From a virus: a DNA stretch of 48,605 nt. The notes beneath the pieces were generated by a model. It worked only from the letters and a program-made list of their open reading frames with translations. It was not told the origin of the DNA and did no database searches. Position numbers and translations under genes: made by a program. Every line of letters begins with the position of its first letter. Within the stretch, counting starts at the first letter, position 1. Shown here piece after piece: positions 32,649 through 47,876 of the stretch. The DNA lies in IMG/VR virus record IMGVR_UViG_3300017963_000357, positions 1 through 48,605 of that record; one strand, 5' to 3'.

Positions 32649-32821
32649 CACCTTGTAAGATGCAGATTCGGTACGAGGTTTGGGACAAGACCTGTGACAT
32701 GGTCTCGAAAGGTCTCGGGGAGGAAGACAATGCTATCCGGCGTCAGGTCGTGCTTGGAGTAAGGCTTGATTGCATCTATCAATTCGATCTACTTCACAGC
32801 AGCATCAAGGATGCCCTATGA
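32645..32821 (+). CDS. 58-aa protein, possible outlying member of the MTP mini-gene family
   Basis: ATGA overlaps at both ends, with the upstream gene and with the metallophosphatase. The product begins MTPCKMQIRYEVWDKTCDMV, sharing with the 37-42 kb array the MTP start, a basic residue at position 5 and a V-W pair near residue 12. Similarity is short, so kinship is tentative. Confidence 0.65.
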   Translation: MTPCKMQIRYEVWDKTCDMVSKGLGEEDNAIRRQVVLGVRLDCIYQFDLLHSSIKDAL

Positions 32822-33411
32822 ACACATGGTTTACGTCCGATCTGCACTTCGAGCACGAGCGACTCATCAATCTGGGTGGGCGCCCGTTCGAGTCCGTCGA
32901 CCATTGGAACGAACACATCCTCGACGCGATCAACTCAAGGGTCATGAGGGCGGACCGGTTGTTCATCCTTGGAGACTTCGCGTGGCACCGCCCTGGTTAC
33001 TGGCGTCAACAGATACGTTGTAGGCACGTTGAACTTATATTGGGCAACCACGACAACGAGAACAAGTGCCGGAAGGTCTTCGGAGGGTCCTGCTATCGAC
33101 AAAGAATGACCAAGATGAACGGAGTGCGCGTCTTTATGAGTCACTTCCCGAACGCGTTCTGGGACTTGAGCCACCGTGGGTCGCTGCATTGTTATGGACA
33201 TACACATGCGCAACGAGAAGACACCCTCGACACAACATGGCCAGAACGACGCAGTATGGACGTTGGTCCTGACAATGCGGCTCGTCTGACCGGCGAGTGG
33301 CGCCCCTTCAGTGGGCAGGAGGTTATTGAGCGGCTGATGGCTCGGAAGGGTCATGATTTGCCAGAGTTCTATCACGAGTTTCAGAGAAACCTTGCAGAGG
33401 AGCGATCATGA
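32818..33411 (+). CDS. Calcineurin-like metallophosphatase
   Basis: Start MNTWFTSDLHFEHERL at 32818 (ATGA overlap). All metallophosphatase motifs are present in order: D8-x-H10, GD53, GN77-H-D79, SH109 and GH128-T-H130. The 197-residue size fits small phage and bacterial members. It should bind two metal ions and hydrolyse phosphoesters. The substrate is not predictable; its 4-base coupling to the Thg1-like gene suggests RNA-end chemistry. Confidence 0.9.
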   Translation: MNTWFTSDLHFEHERLINLGGRPFESVDHWNEHILDAINSRVMRADRLFILGDFAWHRPGYWRQQIRCRHVELILGNHDNENKCRKVFGGSCYRQRMTKMNGVRVFMSHFPNAFWDLSHRGSLHCYGHTHAQREDTLDTTWPERRSMDVGPDNAARLTGEWRPFSGQEVIERLMARKGHDLPEFYHEFQRNLAEERS

Positions 33412-34100
33412 AAGACCTTGGCGACAGGATGAAAGAGAACTACGAGAGCCGTGCGAAGTTCTGCCTCACGCGGAGGACGCCGGTCATCATCCGGATAGAC
33501 GGGCGCGCCTTCCACACATTCACGCGTGGCTTCGATCGTCCCTTCGATCAACGCCTCATCAACGCGATGGTGCATGCTACCAAGGAACTCTTGGCGGACG
33601 CCCAAGGCGCCAAGCTGGCCTACACCCAGAGTGATGAGATCAGCGTGGTGTTGACGGACTACGACACACTCCAGACGGACGCGTGGTTCAATTATAGCGT
33701 GCCTAAGATATGCAGCAATGCCGCCTCCATAGTGACGCGAGCCTTTAACAAGGCGATCGTGTACCCGGAGGCTGCCACGAAGTACCCGTCGGGCGCCACG
33801 TTCGACGCGCGGTGCTTCAACATCCCGAAGGAAGAGGTGGCCAACTATTTCCTCTGGAGAGGTTTGGACTGGAAGCGTAATTCCCTCTCGATGTTCGCGA
33901 GTTCGTTCTTCTCGCAGAAGCAGCTCCATGGGAAGCACGCGTCGCAAGTCCACGAGATGCTTCATGAAATTGGAAAGAATTGGGCAACCGATTTGACAGA
34001 GCAGGAAAAGAATGGTACATTTGTAAGTAAGCGTGGCCCGTTTCATGTCTACCCGGACTACGAGGCCATAGAGTGGGTTCTTGAGGAGACGATGCCGTGA
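33408..34100 (+). CDS. thg1: Thg1-like 3'-5' RNA polymerase (tRNAHis guanylyltransferase family)
   Basis: A 230-residue protein with the Thg1 signature: RID31GRAFHTFTRGF and AKLAYTQSD76EISV. Asp31 and Asp76/Glu77 match the metal-binding carboxylates of the palm domain. FDARCFNIPKEEVANYFLWRG and WKRNSLSMFASSFFS follow, as in the family. Thg1-like proteins add nucleotides to RNA 5' ends, to tRNAHis G-1 or to repair truncated tRNAs. No tRNA gene was found in the window. Overlaps of 4 bases on both sides indicate a tight operon. Confidence 0.93.
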   Translation: MKDLGDRMKENYESRAKFCLTRRTPVIIRIDGRAFHTFTRGFDRPFDQRLINAMVHATKELLADAQGAKLAYTQSDEISVVLTDYDTLQTDAWFNYSVPKICSNAASIVTRAFNKAIVYPEAATKYPSGATFDARCFNIPKEEVANYFLWRGLDWKRNSLSMFASSFFSQKQLHGKHASQVHEMLHEIGKNWATDLTEQEKNGTFVSKRGPFHVYPDYEAIEWVLEETMP

Positions 34101-34936
34101 AACGTTGGTTGATTTTACTTGGTTGTGTTTGTCTGTACATCGTTGGTATGTCGATTGTTGGGCATTTCGTGTGCTCATCGGCTTGTGGCGCGCCTCCTGA
34201 CTTCTGTGTCCGTGTCTTCGTCGATGACAAGGGCGGCAGCCCGGTCTGTGACTCGCAAGGCAGCGGTACGCTGATCTCGCCCACGGAGATAGTGACGAAT
34301 CACCATGTGGTTCGCGACCGCAAGGAGAACAAGGTCCTGATCATGTTTACCGATTGGGAGTGGACGACCGGCAAAGTCATCCGCGAAGACAAGATTTGGG
34401 ACATCGCAATTGTCCAAATCGATAAAACCGATCGCACGCCAGCCGTTCTGGGTGAGACGCCATGCGACGACGAGTCGCTCACAATCCATGGCTATGGGTT
34501 TGGCATCCCAGCATCGATCACAGGCACGCTCTCGGACTGTATCCCGAGCCCTACGGCTGCCAAGGGTCAATCGGGTCTTAGGTTTGTCGCCGGGGCAGGT
34601 GCGCGGGGTGGTGACTCAGGAGGACCTGTGACATACAATGGGAAATATGTTGGGACGCTTGTGGCGACCAACGGAGTCGATACGCTTTACATCACAGTTG
34701 AACGCGTCAACAAGATCAGAAAGGTCCCCAATGGAAACGTTTCAGTTCCAAAAGAAGAATCAAGCGGGGAAGTGGATTCCAGTGTCGGTGATACAGTGCC
34801 AACCTCGCGATATCAGCCGCGCGATCGAGTTCATGTCTGGGTCGGACCCCGACTCACGTATGAAACGAATGAATTGCAGCATCGCCGAAGCCTGTACTTC
34901 CCCAAGTGGTACACTCCCGATCCGAGTGCTGGCTAA
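34097..34936 (+). CDS. Exported trypsin-like serine protease
   Basis: GTG start in a GTGA overlap with the Thg1-like gene. Residues 1-30 form a signal peptide or membrane anchor (MKRWLILLGCVCLYIVGMSI). The catalytic triad of S1 proteases is clear: His70 (TNHHVV), Asp102 (WDIAIVQID) and Ser174 (GGDSGGPV). Cysteines could form disulphides. The last 65 residues after the domain look unstructured and overlap another frame at 34731-34964. It presumably acts in the periplasm or at the surface. Confidence 0.88.
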   Translation: MKRWLILLGCVCLYIVGMSIVGHFVCSSACGAPPDFCVRVFVDDKGGSPVCDSQGSGTLISPTEIVTNHHVVRDRKENKVLIMFTDWEWTTGKVIREDKIWDIAIVQIDKTDRTPAVLGETPCDDESLTIHGYGFGIPASITGTLSDCIPSPTAAKGQSGLRFVAGAGARGGDSGGPVTYNGKYVGTLVATNGVDTLYITVERVNKIRKVPNGNVSVPKEESSGEVDSSVGDTVPTSRYQPRDRVHVWVGPRLTYETNELQHRRSLYFPKWYTPDPSAG

Positions 34937-36110: not shown

Positions 36111-37070
36111 ATGATGATCGAAGAACTGACCCCGGAACAAACCGCTCAACTTGATGTTTACTTCCAAGAAGCCTTGGACATCGGTCTTAGCACCGCCGAC
36201 GTCGACAGAGAGAAGGCAATCACCGCCGTCCGCCTCGCGTACGAGAAGGTTGATATCGAATGCCCGGAGACCTTCATCTTCGCGCAATCACCCACGGACT
36301 GCGTCGACAAACAGAAGCAGTTCTCCGATGAGCACAAGTGTGGGCTGTCACGGTCGACTCTCTTTGAGCACCAAATTTATGGGTGCCACGACATCTACTG
36401 GTTGCAGTTCTACAACTTCTTCTGGAAGGAAGTCGGCTTCGACGAGCTGGCGATCATTGAGGGGCTCCTGGAAGTCTCGCGAACCTGTGGTTGGTGGGCG
36501 CCATACAAAGAGGTGGTGTTCATCCAAGAGCGTCCACTTGAGATTCACTTCAACGAAGGTCAGTTGCACAACGAGGATGGACCTGCCATTCTCTACCGTG
36601 ATGGCTTCGCGGTGTGGGCTCTCAACGGCGTCCGCGTTCCCGAGTGGCTGGTGACGACTCCGATCGAGGATATCACTGGGCAGCAGGTCTTGAGCATCAC
36701 AAATGCCCAAGTCCGTGCCGAAGCCATCCGTAAGATAGGGATGGAGCGACTGGTCGTAATCTCCAATCCGATCGTTCTCGATAAGGAAGAGAACTACGAA
36801 CTCGTCGACCTTCAGGCGATGTTCGAGACGGAAGGACCCAAGCCGTACTTGAAGATGAAGAACCCGAGTGTTCCAGACTTGTGGCACGTCGAGGGTGTCG
36901 GGGTTGAGTGTACGACGATCGACGAAGCACTCCACTTCCGGAAGCCGGACAACATGCGGCGCATCCCGGTCGACGCCGAGAACGGCAAGGACTGGTTTCA
37001 GCAAGGGGATGTCTGCATCTTCCCGAAGAATGCAACGAGTCTGAAGCCGAGGCCCAAGATTCTTACCTGA
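36111..37070 (+). CDS. DUF6745-like protein
   Basis: A 319-residue protein. The second ATG (36114) has better spacing to GGAG. Recognisable DUF6745 segments are YGCHDIYWLQFYNFFWKEV (about 90-108), CGWWAPYKEVVFIQERP and IHFNEGQLHNEDGPAILYRD, then VPEWLV and a C-terminal LWHVEGV part. The family has no known function. In my recollection many members carry long DQVW/DQVR tetrapeptide repeats just before the YGxHD motif. This copy lacks them, yet such repeats occur as separate mini-genes 3 kb downstream. Confidence 0.85.
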   Translation: MMIEELTPEQTAQLDVYFQEALDIGLSTADVDREKAITAVRLAYEKVDIECPETFIFAQSPTDCVDKQKQFSDEHKCGLSRSTLFEHQIYGCHDIYWLQFYNFFWKEVGFDELAIIEGLLEVSRTCGWWAPYKEVVFIQERPLEIHFNEGQLHNEDGPAILYRDGFAVWALNGVRVPEWLVTTPIEDITGQQVLSITNAQVRAEAIRKIGMERLVVISNPIVLDKEENYELVDLQAMFETEGPKPYLKMKNPSVPDLWHVEGVGVECTTIDEALHFRKPDNMRRIPVDAENGKDWFQQGDVCIFPKNATSLKPRPKILT

Positions 37071-40073: not shown

Positions 40074-40180
40074 CGCCTCTTAGAAATCAGGTTTGGAATC
40101 AGGTTTGGAATCAGGTTTGGAATCAGGTTTGGGATCAGGTTCGGAATCAGGTTAGGGATCAGGTTGGGGCGCAACTATGA
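40070..40180 (+). CDS. Pure-repeat mini-gene 17 (36 aa)
   Basis: MTPLR followed by seven NQVW/DQVR-type tetrapeptides, closing GAQL. Each unit is 12 bp (GATCAGGTTTGG type). ATGA overlaps. Confidence 0.75.
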   Translation: MTPLRNQVWNQVWNQVWNQVWDQVRNQVRDQVGAQL

Positions 40181-40347
40181 CGCCAATTAAGGATCAGGTT
40201 TGGGATCAGGTTTTGAATCGGGTTTGGGATCAGGTGCGGGATCAGGTGCGGGATCAGGTTTGGAATCAGGTTTGGGATCAGGTTTGGGATCATGTTTGGG
40301 ATCAGGTTCGGAATCAGGTTTGGGATCAGGTTGGGGCGCAACTATGA
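40177..40347 (+). CDS. Pure-repeat mini-gene 18 (56 aa)
   Basis: MTPIK then about twelve [D/N][Q/R]V[W/R/L] units, closing GAQL, exactly as the previous member. The shared head and tail mark a recent tandem duplication with expansion. Confidence 0.75.
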   Translation: MTPIKDQVWDQVLNRVWDQVRDQVRDQVWNQVWDQVWDHVWDQVRNQVWDQVGAQL

Positions 40348-40550
40348 CGCCAATTAAGGATCAGGTTTGGAATCAGGTTTGGAATCAGGTTCGGAATCAG
40401 GTTTGGAATCAGGTTCGGAATCAGGTTTGGAATCAGGTTGGGGATCGGGTTTGGAATCGGGTTTGGAATCGGGTTGGGGATCAGGTTTGGGATCAGGTTA
40501 GGGATCAGGTTTGGGATCAGGTTAGGGATCAGGTTGGGGAGCAACGATGA
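40344..40550 (+). CDS. Pure-repeat mini-gene 19 (68 aa)
   Basis: MTPIK then about fifteen tetrapeptide units, closing GEQR. Same head as mini-genes 18, 20 and 27. Confidence 0.75.
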   Translation: MTPIKDQVWNQVWNQVRNQVWNQVRNQVWNQVGDRVWNRVWNRVGDQVWDQVRDQVWDQVRDQVGEQR

Positions 40551-40831
40551 CGCCAATTAAGGATCAGGTTTTGAATCGGGTTTGGGATCAGGTTCGGGTT
40601 GGGGATCAGGTTCGGGCGCAGGTTGGGGATCAGGTTGGGGATCAGGTTCGGGCGCAGGTTTGGAATCGGGTTTGGAATCGGGTTAGGGATCAGGTTTGGG
40701 ATCAGGTGCGGGATCAGGTGCGGGATCAGGTGCGGGATCAGGTTTGGAATCAGGTTTTGGATCAGGTTTGGGATCGGGTTGGGATCGGGTTGGGGATCAA
40801 CGATGACGCCGCTTCGAAAAGAGATGTGTGA
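40547..40831 (+). CDS. Pure-repeat mini-gene 20 (94 aa, frameshifted at its end)
   Basis: MTPIK then about eighteen units, including irregular RVGDQVRAQV. Near 40780 one base is missing relative to the repeat, so the frame changes to GIGLGIND and misses the expected CGA TGA at the next start, running on to 40831. Without the loss it would end at 40806 like its neighbours. Confidence 0.65.
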   Translation: MTPIKDQVLNRVWDQVRVGDQVRAQVGDQVGDQVRAQVWNRVWNRVRDQVWDQVRDQVRDQVRDQVWNQVLDQVWDRVGIGLGINDDAASKRDV

Positions 40832-41270: not shown

Positions 41271-41454
41271 AAATCAGGTTTGGGATCAGGTTTTGAATCG
41301 GGTTTTAATCAGGTTTGGGATCAGGTTCGGAATCAGGTTTGGAAACAGGTTTGGAAACAGGTTCGGAATCAGGTTCGGAATCAGGTTAGGGATCGGGTTG
41401 GGAATCAGGTTAGGGATCAGGTTAGGGAATTACTATGACACCTTTGCGACGTGA
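41257..41454 (+). CDS. Pure-repeat mini-gene 24 (65 aa, frameshifted)
   Basis: MTPLRNQVWDQVLNRVL, then one base is missing near 41306 (GTTTTAATC for GTTTTGAATC), so the frame changes to GIRFGNRF repeats. In the original frame it would read NQVWDQVRNQV and end ELL at the TGA inside the next ATGAC. Confidence 0.6.
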   Translation: MTPLRNQVWDQVLNRVLIRFGIRFGIRFGNRFGNRFGIRFGIRLGIGLGIRLGIRLGNYYDTFAT

Positions 41455-42853: not shown

Positions 42854-42942
42854 CAGAAGTGTATCATTTTAATACACACCACCCATTGGAGGGGTAAGCC
42901 AGAAGTGTATCATTTTAATACACTCCACCCGTTGGAGGGGTA
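42854..42942. promoter_or_regulatory. Twin 43-bp elements with palindromic core, candidate operators
   Basis: Two 43-bp direct copies with two mismatches lie at 42854-42896 and 42900-42942, a 46-base period. Each contains GTGTAT-N7-ATACAC (42859-42877 and 42905-42923) followed by CCACCC and TTGGAGGGGTA. They look like tandem protein-binding sites. Confidence 0.6.
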
Positions 42943-43160: not shown

Positions 43161-43277
43161 TCAATACCTCACAGCCCGCACAAACATCACAAGCCAGCCA
43201 AGCCCGGCACCCAGCATAGCCAGTGAACCCGTGACATGTGACAGAACATCCGCATCCGTCGTGAGCGATTCAAACAT
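43161..43277 (-). CDS. 38-aa single-pass membrane peptide
   Basis: CAGGGGAA lies before the ATG at 43277. The product has MFESLTTDADVLSHVTGSLA then a hydrophobic LGAGLGWLVMFV segment and a basic end. It lies 15 bases downstream of another 38-residue membrane peptide gene. Function unknown; holin-like, toxin-like or superinfection-exclusion roles are possible. Confidence 0.6.
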   Translation of the reverse strand: MFESLTTDADVLSHVTGSLAMLGAGLGWLVMFVRAVRY

Positions 43278-43292
43278 TGCAATTCCCCTGAG

Positions 43293-43409
43293 CTAGCTGC
43301 AATACTGTCGTGAGCAGACGTTTGTGGTGTAGTGCCAGCAGAATCCGATGAATCCACCCAAAGCGACTACAAGCAAGTCAAGCGGCGCGTTGGCGAGTGT
43401 CTCGATCAT
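43293..43409 (-). CDS. 38-aa membrane peptide behind cassette promoter 1
   Basis: Start at 43409, the first ATG after the conserved ACAGGGGAAACA leader. The product MIETLANAPLDLLVVALGGF then IGFCWHYTTN has one membrane helix. Same length and similar M-x-E-x-L start as the next gene. Confidence 0.65.
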   Translation of the reverse strand: MIETLANAPLDLLVVALGGFIGFCWHYTTNVCSRQYCS

Positions 43410-43475
43410 TGTGTTTCCCCTGTTTGCGTGTTGCCTTGAACTATTCAAGTCTACGTCGCACCGCAAGCAAGTCAA
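43410..43475 (-). promoter_or_regulatory. Promoter-operator cassette 1
   Basis: On the leftward strand: TTGACT (-35, 43475-43470), 16-base spacer with GCGGTGCGACG, TAGACT (-10, 43453-43448), palindrome TTGAATAGTTCAA (43448-43436), then leader CGCAAACAGGGGAAACA with the Shine-Dalgarno sequence. Confidence 0.8.
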
Positions 43476-43672
43476 ATGGATTCTTGGAAATGAGGAAATA
43501 AAGTCGACAATTCCCCGCGCCAGAAGTCGGCCTCACCGATGTCACCCTTCAAATCGTTATGAACGATTGTTTCGAGTATGTCGCGCAGCGTGCGCGAGCC
43601 TTCGCAATACTCGTTGTCGATATCCGATCGGCTGCCGAAGCGGTTTTCAATTAGGCGTTTTGCGGTTCTCAT
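43472..43672 (-). CDS. Small protein behind cassette promoter 2 (66 aa)
   Basis: MRTAKRLIENRFGSRSDIDN, a helical acidic protein (RTLRDILETIVHNDL). AGGGGA Shine-Dalgarno sequence in the conserved leader. Its last bases contain the -35 of cassette 1. Unknown function. Confidence 0.7.
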   Translation of the reverse strand: MRTAKRLIENRFGSRSDIDNEYCEGSRTLRDILETIVHNDLKGDIGEADFWRGELSTLFPHFQESI

Positions 43673-43739
43673 CGTGTTTCCCCTGTTTGCGTCGCGTTCC
43701 TGAACTATTAAAGGATACGTCGCACCGCAAGCAAGTCAA
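43673..43739 (-). promoter_or_regulatory. Promoter-operator cassette 2
   Basis: TTGACT (43739-43734), 16-base spacer, TATCCT (43717-43712), a degenerate TTTAATAGTTCAG palindrome and the CAAACAGGGGAAACACG leader. Confidence 0.8.
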
Positions 43740-43742
43740 GGA

Positions 43743-43961
43743 TTATTTCTCGGATTCCAAAACTTTGAATGCGGCGCGAGTAGCTCGACGCGCATCCCGT
43801 GGCGGATTCCACATATCATAGCCGTAGGTGTCGCCCCCATAGTGGATTGGCCAATCGGTGTTGAATCCGTTTGGATGGTCGAGTCGGACCCGAAGCCCCG
43901 TATCTGTTTGCACAATGTGCGATTCCCAAGCGCCCCGTTTGAAACTCCTAAGAATCGTCAT
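43743..43961 (-). CDS. Small protein (72 aa), third in the cassette 3 operon
   Basis: Start MTILRSFKRGAWESHIVQTD at 43961, with GGAG upstream and an ATGA overlap with the previous frame. The product has HYGGDTYGYDMWNPPRDARR. No family recognised. Confidence 0.65.
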   Translation of the reverse strand: MTILRSFKRGAWESHIVQTDTGLRVRLDHPNGFNTDWPIHYGGDTYGYDMWNPPRDARRATRAAFKVLESEK

Positions 43962-44062
43962 TTCCCAAATCTCCGCATGAAGCGGCGCGACCGGTGCAAA
44001 GCATACCACCGTCGTCGCGCCTCATTGCTTGAATGGCGGCGCTTGCGTTTTCCATCCGCCAT
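43958..44062 (-). CDS. Very basic 34-aa peptide
   Basis: MADGKRKRRHSSNEARRRWY, 14 of 34 residues Arg or Lys. It fits snugly between the flanking genes (3-base gap upstream, ATGA overlap downstream). A competing 43-residue frame (43948-44079, MRDIDQWRMENASAA) covers the same bases; I favour the basic one for its overlap pattern. Confidence 0.45.
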   Translation of the reverse strand: MADGKRKRRHSSNEARRRWYALHRSRRFMRRFGK

Positions 44063-44065
44063 TGG

Positions 44066-44224
44066 TCAATATCCCGCATTCCGTAGCGCGTCGACTTGTG
44101 CGCGGACGTCGCGAAGGTTAGGTGCGACAAGCACTACCGAACCTCCTACGTCGATTGCAAGCTTGTCACCATCCACCCAAGCGTCGAACCCGTTCTGGCG
44201 GACAAAGTTGATAAGACTGGTCAT
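44066..44224 (-). CDS. 52-aa protein behind cassette promoter 3
   Basis: First ATG after the leader. MTSLINFVRQNGFDAWVDGD then LAIDVGGSVVLVAPN and LRDVRAQVDALRNAGY: a compact alpha-beta protein. Unknown function. Confidence 0.65.
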   Translation of the reverse strand: MTSLINFVRQNGFDAWVDGDKLAIDVGGSVVLVAPNLRDVRAQVDALRNAGY

Positions 44225-44291
44225 TTTGTTTCCCCTGTTTGCGTTTCGTTCCTGAACTACTCAAATGTAGCCCGCACCGGTGCTAGGTCAA
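44225..44291 (-). promoter_or_regulatory. Promoter-operator cassette 3
   Basis: TTGACC (44291-44286), 16-base spacer, TACATT (44269-44264), then TTGAGTAGTTCAG and the CAAACAGGGGAAACAAA leader. Confidence 0.75.
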
Positions 44292-44292
44292 G

Positions 44293-44865
44293 TCAAAATA
44301 CCCGAATTCCGGAACAAGCATTCTTTCCCGATGTGGTTATGCGGACTGCGCCAGCTTTGTTGATTTTGAGGAACCCCCGATCGGCAAGCGAGTCCAGTTC
44401 CGGACCGACAACGTTCATCGCATCCAATGCCGACTTGCGATACTGCCCTCCTTTGGTCGAGCGGATGGTTGCCAGAATGCGCTTTTCCCGTTCCGACAAG
44501 TCAACAGGCGATGGAAGCAACGCAGGCGCATTGGCCACGCCAACGATTATTGTGGCATAGTTTCGGTATCCAGCCGATCCCTTAATCACCAACGCATTGG
44601 CTGGAATCGGATAATCCGCACTATCAAGATCGACTCGATTTGCCGGGTTGAACATGTTCGCGCCGCCCCACGACCCGTTAAACTCGCGCACAACCGCGCC
44701 GCTTTCCAAGTCGATAATGTCACAATACCCGCGTTGTCCATCCGACCCACAATCGAGAGGGCAAACGGTTTCGGCTACTTCAATCGCGACGTCGCGTTTG
44801 TTGTAACCACGGGCGCGGAGTCGACTTTGGACGGATGACGGAAGGCTTTTGGTTTCGATGTGCAT
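44293..44865 (-). CDS. 190-aa protein with C-terminal winged-helix-like region
   Basis: MHIETKSLPSSVQSRLRARG, with CPLDCGSDGQRGYCD as a Cys cluster in the N-terminal half. Residues about 125-185 (LSEREKRILATIRSTKGGQY, DSLADRGFLKINKAG, VRITTSGKNA) have the helix-helix-wing order of a winged helix, so DNA binding is plausible. It is the largest gene behind a cassette promoter and a candidate regulator of the cassettes. Confidence 0.7.
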   Translation of the reverse strand: MHIETKSLPSSVQSRLRARGYNKRDVAIEVAETVCPLDCGSDGQRGYCDIIDLESGAVVREFNGSWGGANMFNPANRVDLDSADYPIPANALVIKGSAGYRNYATIIVGVANAPALLPSPVDLSEREKRILATIRSTKGGQYRKSALDAMNVVGPELDSLADRGFLKINKAGAVRITTSGKNACSGIRVF

Positions 44866-44935
44866 TGCGTTTCCCCTGTTTGCGTGCGTGTTGCCTTGAA
44901 CTATTCAAGTTTACGTCGCACCGCAATCAAGTCAA
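44866..44935 (-). promoter_or_regulatory. Promoter-operator cassette 4
   Basis: TTGACT (44935-44930), 16-base spacer, TAAACT (44913-44908), perfect TTGAATAGTTCAA (44908-44896) and the CAAACAGGGGAAACGCA leader. Confidence 0.8.
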
Positions 44936-45217
44936 GTAGATAATGAATTCATACCGACCGCTTGGCATACGAAACCACGTACAAAACGCACAAGTGTCAA
45001 TCTCGACACCATCGTGAGAAAGCAACCAAGTCGCACGACCCTCATCACCCGGACAATTCGCCCATGTTTCAAGTTGTAATCCGTGCGCGTCGAGAACCTC
45101 CGTTAGTGCGTTGATAAAGGCCCCTTTGGTTTCGTAATAGCGCCCGGACGATAGCTTGGCCACGTCATCCCGCAATTGACAACTCGACCGAACCCGTTCT
45201 TTGTTCGTTGTTAGCAT
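44927..45217 (-). CDS. Small protein behind cassette promoter 5 (96 aa)
   Basis: MLTTNKERVRSSCQLRDDVA, with helix GAFINALTEVLDAHGLQLET and a C-terminal beta part GVEIDTCAFCTWFRMPSGRY. Unknown function. Its 3' end overlaps the -35 of cassette 4. Confidence 0.7.
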   Translation of the reverse strand: MLTTNKERVRSSCQLRDDVAKLSSGRYYETKGAFINALTEVLDAHGLQLETWANCPGDEGRATWLLSHDGVEIDTCAFCTWFRMPSGRYEFIIYLT

Positions 45218-45280
45218 CGTGTTTCCCCTGTCGTGCGCGTTGAACTATTGAAAGCTTAGTTCACACCACAAGCAAGTCAA
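45218..45280 (-). promoter_or_regulatory. Promoter-operator cassette 5
   Basis: TTGACT (45280-45275), 16-base spacer, TAAGCT (45258-45253), TTTCAATAGTTCAA and the ACAGGGGAAACACG leader. Confidence 0.8.
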
Positions 45281-45296
45281 GGGAAATAATTCCGGT

Positions 45297-45324
45297 TTGA
45301 CAAAACGGTTCTACGTGGTAGGCT
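45297..45324 (+). promoter_or_regulatory. Rightward promoter, divergent from cassette 5
   Basis: Perfect TTGACA (45297-45302), 16-base spacer, TAGGCT (45319-45324). A 60-codon frame starts at 45329, too close for a normal leader, so the product could be a small RNA or a leaderless message. Confidence 0.6.
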
Positions 45325-45530
45325 TCATATGAGCCCCACCACACGTGGTTGGGTTCTTCCGGTTCTCCGGATTCTCCGGGTTCTTCCGGTTCTCCGGATT
45401 CTTCCGACTGGCGGAACCGGGCGAGCGGGGGAAACTCGCGTCGCCGACGAACACGCTAACTTAGGCGGACACGCCGCCGCCCGCCCCGTGGAGATAAGCG
45501 CTACTAATTAACAATAGCGCTACAATCAAT
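45325..45530 (+). other. Gap with tandem and inverted repeats, possible small transcript
   Basis: Holds two 27-28-bp tandem copies (45351-45377, 45378-45405) starting GGGTTCTTCCGGTTCTCCGG, and the perfect inverted pair AGCGCTA (45497-45503) / TAGCGCT (45515-45521) around TAATTAACAA. The + strand frame 45329-45511 (MSPTTRGWVLPVLRILRVL) is repetitive and unconvincing. Confidence 0.5.
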
Positions 45531-45537
45531 TCAACCA

Positions 45538-45807
45538 TCAAAACGGCACGTCATCAGGCCAAGCCTGTCGTTCGAGATACGCCGCATGGAACGCGGCTTC
45601 CTCATCGTTCGCCAATTGCTCACAGTAGTCACAACCGCCAACGTTGCCATGGTCGCACGGACCGTCACCCTCAACATCAGCCGCAGGGTCGCCACAATCC
45701 CAACCGTCGAACCGATCGAACTGGGCGTTAAACTCATGCTCATAATGATCCCGCTCGGGATCGCCAAAGATGGCATACTCGTTGCAATAGTCTTCATAGC
45801 TGGACAT
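45538..45807 (-). CDS. Acidic zinc-binding-like protein (89 aa)
   Basis: MSSYEDYCNEYAIFGDPERD, acidic and aromatic, then CDHGNVGGCDYCEQL with a C-x7-C-x2-C metal-site pattern and an acidic tail. It is behind cassette 6. Unknown function. Confidence 0.75.
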   Translation of the reverse strand: MSSYEDYCNEYAIFGDPERDHYEHEFNAQFDRFDGWDCGDPAADVEGDGPCDHGNVGGCDYCEQLANDEEAAFHAAYLERQAWPDDVPF

Positions 45808-45877
45808 GGTGAATTCCCGATCGGGTGCGTGTTGTGTTGGAACTACTCAAGTCTACGCCGCCCCGCCTAGTTGTCCA
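45808..45877 (-). promoter_or_regulatory. Promoter-operator cassette 6 (variant leader)
   Basis: TGGACA (45877-45872), 16-base spacer with GCGGGGCGGCG, TAGACT (45855-45850) and TTGAGTAGTTCCAA. The CAAACAGGGGAAAC leader is replaced by ACCCGATCGGGAATTCACC. Confidence 0.7.
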
Positions 45878-46303: not shown

Positions 46304-46332
46304 TTGACACCACTCCCGATTGGTGGTACAAT
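46304..46332 (+). promoter_or_regulatory. Strong rightward promoter
   Basis: Perfect TTGACA (46304-46309), 17-base spacer, TACAAT (46327-46332). The spacer has CCAC...GGTGG inverted ends. AGGAG and the ATG at 46361 follow. Confidence 0.85.
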
Positions 46333-46360: not shown

Positions 46361-46714
46361 ATGCTTCCAAACCTCAAAACCCTCTCAGATGGTCGTTATC
46401 GTGTTAAAATGGAAATCCCGCTCAGTCGGAACATCCAAAACCAAATCATCCCTTTCATCGGCAAAGCCGGACACATGTATTGCTACGGCCCCGGGCGAAT
46501 CGGTGTTTCAATCGACATAAAGGGACCCCGCCGCAAAGCCCTTCTAGCTCTCCCAGGCGCCAGAATCGAGCAGGATGGCGACGACGGGATGAACATTTCC
46601 CTCCCAACCGACACATTCGATTCAGTCGCTGCAATCATGAAACCCTACCGAATTCCTAATCTGTCGCCCGAAGAACGTCAACGTCGACGGGATAGAATAT
46701 CGTTCATCCGGTAA
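46361..46714 (+). CDS. Unknown protein (117 aa), lone rightward gene
   Basis: MLPNLKTLSDGRYRVKMEIP, then IIPFIGKAGHMYCYGPGRIG and a basic tail LSPEERQRRRDRISFIR. It has its own strong promoter and a good AGGAG, among leftward genes: an arrangement typical of a regulator or moron. No domain recognised. Confidence 0.8.
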   Translation: MLPNLKTLSDGRYRVKMEIPLSRNIQNQIIPFIGKAGHMYCYGPGRIGVSIDIKGPRRKALLALPGARIEQDGDDGMNISLPTDTFDSVAAIMKPYRIPNLSPEERQRRRDRISFIR

Positions 46715-47249: not shown

Positions 47250-47418
47250 CCCGTATCTTCCCCCAAACCAGTCTCACCAGCGCACGTGGTAGGTCCCTGT
47301 CATTCGGTAACACGAGTTGAAGCCGACCAGGCCACACAGCACACATGAACCCTCGAAACTGAGTAGTCATGATATACCTATTTCTCGGCATTTCCCTTAT
47401 TTCCGGCACAGGCGTCAT
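47218..47418 (-). CDS. Leftward MTPV-family gene (66 aa)
   Basis: MTPVPEIREMPRNRYIMTTQ, later FMCAVWPGRLQLV and LVRLVWGKIRDD with the family's V-W pairs. Its ATG forms an overlap with the Cys-rich gene's stop at 47415. Confidence 0.6.
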   Translation of the reverse strand: MTPVPEIREMPRNRYIMTTQFRGFMCAVWPGRLQLVLPNDRDLPRALVRLVWGKIRDDTTGRDSLA

Positions 47419-47876
47419 TCGTCGCCCTCTTCCTCATAGTCAATGTAATCGTAGAAAGGCTTCCAGACCATAACAGCCACCGAATCGTCATAACCCTCCC
47501 GCAGGTCGGTCTGGACGGTTTCCTTGACATATTCGGCACCAGCGCTGGTAAGGTCATTACCGAGAAAGCAGCCATACTTGAAACCGTCGGGAGTTTGCTC
47601 ACAGTTGACACAGTCCTCATGATTACCACAATGCTGAGGACAGTCACTTTCCTCATCATCGCTACACCACTTCGGATACTCATCACTGTCATACGTGCGC
47701 TCATCCATCCCACGCAGATAGTCGTTCAGCGCCTTGCAGGACGCAAACTCGGAAACACGCTCACCATCCGGCGTAACGGAAAGAGCCCGATCATGCCACA
47801 TGACGTCAGCAATGGAGTCTTTGGCTTGGTCGATACAATCGTCACAATAGATGTCAGCACGGTAAATCCCTGCCAT
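47415..47876 (-). CDS. Cys-rich acidic protein (153 aa)
   Basis: MAGIYRADIYCDDCIDQAKD, later CSDDEESDCPQHCGNHEDCVNC: multiple C-x2-C pairs that should bind zinc. Acidic C-terminus. Proteins with the 'YRADIYCDDC' start are common in environmental phages; function unknown. Confidence 0.8.
   Translation of the reverse strand: MAGIYRADIYCDDCIDQAKDSIADVMWHDRALSVTPDGERVSEFASCKALNDYLRGMDERTYDSDEYPKWCSDDEESDCPQHCGNHEDCVNCEQTPDGFKYGCFLGNDLTSAGAEYVKETVQTDLREGYDDSVAVMVWKPFYDYIDYEEEGDE

Follow-up and report, generated by a model that had tools for sequence, protein, structure and literature searches.

Multi-copy promoter families are already known in phages, and several such systems serve here for comparison. 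T4-type phages (T4, RB69, RB49, RB43, 44RR and Aeh1) display early promoters with a phage-specific consensus, which are often located before novel open reading frames (ORFs) (PMC1524935), and they are also the source of PeSLs, which are mobile promoter-terminator cassettes (Arbiol 2010; Comeau 2014; via PMC4503421). Kayvirus vB_SauM-515A1 possesses 58 sigma-70-type early promoters with a single consensus (PMC7698491). In SIRV2 and other archaeal viruses, conserved regulatory sequences were used to find anti-defence genes (PMC11065993). Mycobacteriophages of cluster K carry 11 to 19 short start-associated copies (SAS/ESAS) per genome, half of the SAS copies being accompanied by an upstream element that is maybe a promoter or an operator (PMC3203893; start-associated repeats of this cluster are also treated in PMC12699233), and those of cluster A contain asymmetric sites bound by a repressor (PMC9283540). 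The present analysis concerns six related promoter-leader cassettes found in an array of small minus-strand ORFs at the right-hand end of a stretch of 48,605 bases (hereafter the window; IMG/VR record IMGVR_UViG_3300017963_000357, positions 1 to 48,605), which is that of a tailed phage, given its terminase, portal, coat and tape-measure genes. These cassettes probably constitute a family of strong phage promoters of sigma-70 type, specific to this genome and sharing an untranslated leader with a Shine-Dalgarno sequence, and they probably spread by duplication along small accessory genes.

As an earlier, sequence-only reading of this DNA had stated, related blocks precede the six minus-strand genes starting at 43409, 43672, 44224, 44865, 45217 and 45807, after which the cassettes are designated here (c43409 and so on). 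Each of them was recovered from the whole window by a full-cassette profile built from the other five, with E values of 2.2e-19 for c43409, 1.5e-18 for c43672, 2.2e-11 for c44224, 6.4e-18 for c44865, 3.1e-10 for c45217 and 2.5e-5 for c45807. The best non-cassette match in any of these leave-one-out runs over the window had an E value of 0.34, and a six-copy model found exactly six copies and no seventh in the window at E <= 10. Similarity over the whole cassette exceeds chance.

The -35 and -10 hexamers were separated by 16 nt in all six copies, again in agreement with the earlier reading, and its motifs for the hexamers were borne out in most of them: TTGACT was encountered in four copies, c44224 and c45807 being the exceptions, and a -10 of TAnnCT type in all except c44224. 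Cassette c43409 (43410-43475, minus strand like the others) is composed of TTGACT-16-TAGACT, RTAGTTC and the leader CAAACAGGGGAAAC, as far as the ATG. Next come c43672 (43673-43739; TTGACT-16-TATCCT, RTAGTTC, leader), beginning 3 nt past the preceding stop, and c44224 (44225-44291; TTGACC-16-TACATT, divergent spacer, RTAGTTC, leader), beginning 1 nt past it. Cassette c44865 (44866-44935; TTGACT-16-TAAACT, RTAGTTC, leader) is a near-copy of c43409. In c45217 (45218-45280; TTGACT-16-TAAGCT) one extra base lies between the -10 and RTAGTTC, and the leader core ACAGGGGAAAC follows. The weakest copy is c45807 (45808-45877; TGGACA-16-TAGACT, RTAGTTC, ACGCA), which lacks ACAGGGGAAAC. This core, which had been assigned to five of the six leaders, occurred five times in the window, always within a cassette, against 0.75 expected occurrences with one mismatch allowed. 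The distance from -35 to ATG was nearly constant at 63-70 nt (70, 63, 70, 67, 67 and 66).

RTAGTTC at the likely start was invariant in the six copies. The palindrome TTGAAtagTTCAA that had been described there did not stand: it is perfect in only two copies, c43409 and c44865, which form a 93%-identical pair over 57 nt, and the arm pairs retained out of five numbered 5 in c43409, 3 in c43672, 3 in c44224, 5 in c44865, 4 in c45217 and 3 in c45807. No compensatory changes were seen in the imperfect arms of the six copies, and the leader RNA of the three copies folded was no better folded than shuffles. A palindromic operator as a conserved start-site feature was rejected, its arms not being kept in four of the six copies. 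Transcription would start on or beside the TAG of RTAGTTC, at the standard distance from the -10, so that a preference of the initiation region explains this block as well as an operator does.

Cassettes and genes were tightly packed. The gap between the preceding stop codon and the cassette was -11, -9, -4, 1 or 3 nt in five of six cases, c45217 being preceded by 257 nt: the TGA that ends the preceding gene falls within the -35 of c43409 (gap -4), the -35 of c44865 lies within the last codons (TTG ACT TGA) of its neighbour (gap -9), and c45807 runs into the end of the ORF before it (gap -11). Minus-strand terminator signals between 42000 and 48605 were not above chance (nine found versus 6.6 in shuffles, standard deviation 2.7). 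The earlier description of separately driven genes was not confirmed: given this packing and a terminator signal at chance level, separate transcription units are unlikely and transcripts would be nested, stacking toward the left end of the array as far as its anatomy indicates. Just past this downstream (left) end, a unit of 46 nt containing two inverted repeats is followed by its tandem duplicate (42854-42942); this hairpin unit folds on the minus strand with z = -2.35 and is a possible end of transcription. Tandem repeats of 27 and 9 nt (45351-45406) lie in the one long gap that the array has.

If the cassettes form a promoter family, host RNA polymerase would start at or near the TAG of RTAGTTC shortly after the DNA has entered the cell, and each promoter, for want of space for terminators, would add to transcripts entering from upstream; nested mRNAs and a rising dosage from 45.9 to about 43.2 kb would be expected. 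The common leader would ensure similar translation of each small gene, and several near-equal promoters would provide strong joint expression of small accessory genes, which most likely serve in host takeover or anti-defence. The lack of family matches among the small ORFs supports this explanation: scanning four ORFs driven by cassettes (66, 190, 96 and 89 aa) gave no Pfam or PHROGs match. A dedicated regulator would not be required; an Aca-type repressor, for which the 190-aa protein encoded within the array is the candidate, would be a possible addition.

Copies would have arisen via duplication of cassette and gene together, recombination and selection then keeping them alike. Mean identity over the 15 pairs was 0.63 in the spacer versus 0.36 in the 20 nt upstream of the -35, and the earlier claim of spacer conservation beyond what promoters need holds in so far as the flank is exceeded; much of this conservation can be recent duplication. 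Near-copies are alike also in the non-promoter linker between start and leader (c43409/c44865 as given above, c43672/c44224 with 71% over 95 nt), so that recent duplication accounts for much of the spacer identity. The proposed shared spacer sequence was found among four copies (c43409, c43672, c44865 and c45217 agree at 0.69-1.00, the first three differing at 0-1 of 16 bases) but not in c44224 and c45807, which are only 31-56% identical to the rest (0.31-0.56 for such pairs).

The cassettes resemble T4-type early promoters in that many copies of one sigma-70-like promoter, with hexamers at sigma-70 spacing, occur per genome. They differ from the consensus described for those phages by their TTGAC -35, their 16-nt spacer, their conserved leader with Shine-Dalgarno sequence and units abutting stop codons. 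The promoters described for Kayvirus vB_SauM-515A1 differ by a 17-nt spacer, a TRTGN extension and the presence of terminators. Like the anti-defence regulons described for archaeal viruses, the array displays a genome-specific sequence before several small unrelated genes, one of which encodes a winged helix-turn-helix (wHTH) protein (predicted here), and relatives carry other sequences; the archaeal regulons involve TATA/BRE promoters and single genes with partly tested function, whereas the cassettes are known from sequence alone. PeSLs as summarised in the source are also repeated intergenic promoter units and were proposed to help shuffle small genes, but no minus-strand stem-loop terminator above chance was found between the genes of the array. 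SAS/ESAS, as described, consist of the 13-bp GGGATAGGAGCCC at start codons plus 17-bp inverted repeats; the cassette leader is a different sequence, CAAACAGGGGAAAC, and no 17-bp inverted repeat of this type was found on reading the six cassettes. Cluster A stoperators are short asymmetric sites, bound by an immunity repressor and spread throughout the genome; the cassette is asymmetric and, within the window, occurs at 43.4-45.9 kb only, and no repressor family was recognised among the ORFs scanned of this incomplete genome. Literature searches on comparable systems in general cannot show that the cassette or the 190-aa family is unpublished.

Repeated promoters were also encountered in other phages. 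Sites of the form TTGAC-(15 to 18)-TAnnnT were listed for the window together with seven other virus records, two of which were not covered to their end, and sites with a spacer identity of at least 11 bases were considered a promoter family. The largest groups comprised four sites in the window, four in G017, three in G023 and 27 in G034 (out of 36 sites at 16 nt); among 50 shuffles of each of the eight records, the largest group was two, and one everywhere except in G007. The structural relatives G017 and G023 have terminase, portal, coat and tail proteins in common with the window (the first three at 50-60% identity), and yet their repeated promoters differ in sequence from those of the window; none of the 11 array-region proteins was matched in either of them at E <= 0.01. 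G034 is a 212-kb phage unrelated to the window, none of seven window structural proteins being matched in it, and it displays the same unit layout in a run of 14 units. In 13 of these a start codon is accompanied by a ribosome site, the distance from -35 to ATG being 62-68 nt in 12 of the 13 (95 nt in the other), and stop-to-next-unit gaps range from -12 to +20 nt in 11 out of 12 cases. These gaps were measured from gene starts with a ribosome site because TTGAC always holds TGA in one frame, which makes a gap of -4 in G034 partly an artefact. The 36 promoters of G034 (L099-L101) are of one type at 16-nt spacing and mostly lie within ~40 kb, with conserved AGCC beside the -35 and TGGT beside the -10, the middle of the spacer not being conserved. 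A spacer GGTG, found in the window, in G034 and in a promoter at 46304, was rejected as an element common to all phages, its distance from the -10 being different. The latter promoter (46304-46332, plus strand; TTGACA-17-TACAAT, TG before the -10) is the best sigma-70 match of the region and precedes a divergent 117-aa gene (46361-46714).

Outside the window, neither patterns nor the cassette model revealed a relative with this cassette. Regular expressions were run on all 67 terminase-relative loci, the model on 47 of them and also on 28 of the 67 records whole. Applied to 29 further virus records, three terminase-relative genomes and eight records with homologues of the 190-aa protein, the model produced a single hit, weak and partial, which was located in G017 (17.5 bits, E of 3.3e-4 for the record) and is a member of this phage's own family of four. 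In viral contigs, one exact cassette pattern had a single chance match inside apparent coding DNA and the second had none, and the leader pattern was present in four contigs, in one copy each and without the RTAGTTC block, which corresponds to the chance level.

Several points weigh against a promoter family. Taken alone, the promoter part (-35 to -10) is not above chance in c44224 and c45807 (leave-one-out scores of 4.7 and 7.5 bits; comparable sites arise 8.8 and 2.6 times per shuffle), the other four copies standing out with 0 in 100 shuffles, so that c44224 and c45807 belong to the group through RTAGTTC and, for c44224, through the leader. The largest group was one in each of G007, G024, G025 and G033, and a TTGAC family is thus not universal among relatives. 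All six copies have just one spacer pattern in common, GG.G.G, whose invariant bases could also be the sign of a regulator. For the promoters, timing, strength and start sites are inferred, and regulators may lie outside the window, the genome being incomplete: a record nearly identical to window bases 1-27557 (G001) extends 2.7 kb further left, which makes the window a fragment.

A tentative alternative, itself compatible with a promoter family, is that the cassettes are alike chiefly as homology for swapping small genes, as was proposed for T4-type PeSLs. With its edge at the preceding stop codon, a cassette together with its ORF would be a swappable unit, and the sharp drop of similarity upstream of the -35 fits such a boundary, as does the lack of matches to the 11 array-region proteins searched in G017 and G023, whose structural genes are alike. 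On the other hand, the cassettes have no stem-loop and, no relative with the same cassette having been found, swapping is not directly visible.

The cassettes may be controlled by a single regulator, as the sequence-only reading had proposed. Spacer and/or start region would then be an operator, and the co-expressed winged-helix protein (190 aa; 44293-44865, minus strand) would shut the array down after a burst in an Aca-like manner, which we consider rather unlikely. The gene itself lies behind a cassette, and the predicted C-terminal winged helix (residues ~119-190) of this candidate found support in a structural model, in Foldseek and in a second structure comparison. The AlphaFold2 model had a pLDDT of 80 overall. 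Foldseek gave no match at E <= 0.001, and its weak E values, 0.03 and above, count against a regulator; top rows include DR2539 and MarR repressors with ~70 residues aligned. CouR, DR2539 and MarR were best in the second comparison (Z 8.3-8.5, root-mean-square deviation 2.1-3.2, 62-71 residues), although, as the tool cautions, a Z near 8 may reflect only a common structural arrangement. All 50 rows listed there cover residues ~119-190, with MarR/DtxR-type and similar regulators leading; over the first nine rows, Z reaches 8.5 and 61-71 residues are aligned with a deviation of 2.1-3.2. In archaeal viruses, the wHTH protein Aca8 was described as the likely repressor of a comparable regulon (PMC11065993). 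The palindrome is however not preserved in four of the six copies and the spacer displays no dyad by eye; asymmetric sites being bound by the cluster A repressor, the lack of a palindrome is still compatible with a repressor. The motif GSWGGANMFNP, common to eight aligned sequences of the 190-aa family, is their most conserved part and lies outside the winged helix, which is odd for a plain repressor. A second candidate, the protein encoded at 46361-46714, was rejected: its low-confidence model (pLDDT 64) has alternating strands and helices and no evident DNA-binding fold, no fold search having been made.

The 190-aa protein fits no Pfam or PHROGs family. Eight further virus records carry relatives of it, as does one record out of 50,697 from named phages; alone among the 11 array-region proteins searched, it had a match in the compared phage loci. 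In eight phages, the 110 nt before its gene were compared with the remainder of the stretch around it (8.3-40 kb); a ninth carrier (L093) was cut off and left out. Repeated DNA was found upstream in four of the eight (window, G033, G034 and G038), where 2-5% of 60 random 110-nt stretches per genome reached the same best score, and this recurrence argues for a regulator. The remaining four homologues argue against it, no repeat standing out upstream in G035, G036, G037 and G039, although the script-chosen start may be wrong in the last three. The upstream repeats were unlike between genomes: those of the window and G034 are sigma-70-like, G033 has AT-rich palindromes, and the repeat of G038 is GC-rich. 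The palindromes of G033 (L124) are TTATTTATTC..GAATAAATAA in four copies, one of which lies upstream of the homologue of the 190-aa gene, and GTTTTAACTTG..GTTAAAGG in five. That winged-helix proteins with the GSWGGANMFNP motif act as a travelling master regulator of small-gene arrays, lying behind and switching off each genome's own repeated upstream element in structurally unrelated phages, appears improbable. If true, the gene and the repeat behind which it lies would reveal the host-takeover or anti-defence genes of each phage, and this link to the 190-aa winged-helix protein is the part worth following.

Recognition of the long block by a phage-coded single-subunit RNA polymerase or an alternative sigma factor is very improbable: conservation does span spacer and start as in T7-type promoters, but the hexamers are standard (TTGAC/TAnnnT at 16-nt spacing), sigma region 4 was found in none of the eight phage records and in all 14 control genomes, and PF00940 had no match in the eight records, a negative tempered by the incomplete genome and by its failure to match any control genome.

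Should the cassettes be a promoter family, repeated upstream elements would offer a handle on coordinately expressed early genes of uncultured bacterial phages from sequence, as they do for archaeal viruses. Turnover is also evident from the comparison: phages with 50-60% identical terminase, portal and coat have entirely different repeated promoters, each alike within its genome. Such likeness within genomes and difference between them brings two possible causes, sequence homogenisation and a co-evolving regulator, within reach of a test.

The other products of the array are small and all encoded on the minus strand. Cassette c43409 precedes a 38-aa ORF (43293-43409) with a hydrophobic stretch by eye, and the next ORF (43161-43277), also of 38 aa and hydrophobic by eye, lacks its own cassette, as does one of 72 aa (43743-43961). 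ORFs of 66 aa (43472-43672) and 96 aa (44927-45217) had no family match, and one of 52 aa lies at 44066-44224. An acidic 89-aa ORF (45538-45807), equally without family match, displays a Cys/His cluster by eye (C.H..DC..CEQ type), which is common to another small acidic protein (47415-47876, minus strand); the two are possible paralogues.

No DNA relatives of the window were found among named phages. Its terminase was 23.8-26.4% identical to those of named phages among the 15 matches listed, and all 723 records fell below 60%. Metagenome-assembled genomes with terminase relatives were labelled Anaerolinea, Planctomycetota and Chloroflexi, a binning that may be wrong. Elsewhere in the window, a Thg1-type tRNA-His guanylyltransferase is encoded at 33408-34100 on the plus strand (PF04446, 2.8e-31; phrog_4717, 9.8e-79), with a phosphoesterase (32770-33411), a trypsin-like protease (34097-34936) and a DUF6745 protein (36111-37070) as neighbours. 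Arrays of a 12-nt repeat (ATCAGGTTTGGG-like) occupy 40086-40799 (59 copies) and 41272-41428, where the GC skew is +0.36, and their one-base register breaks argue against a coding repeat.

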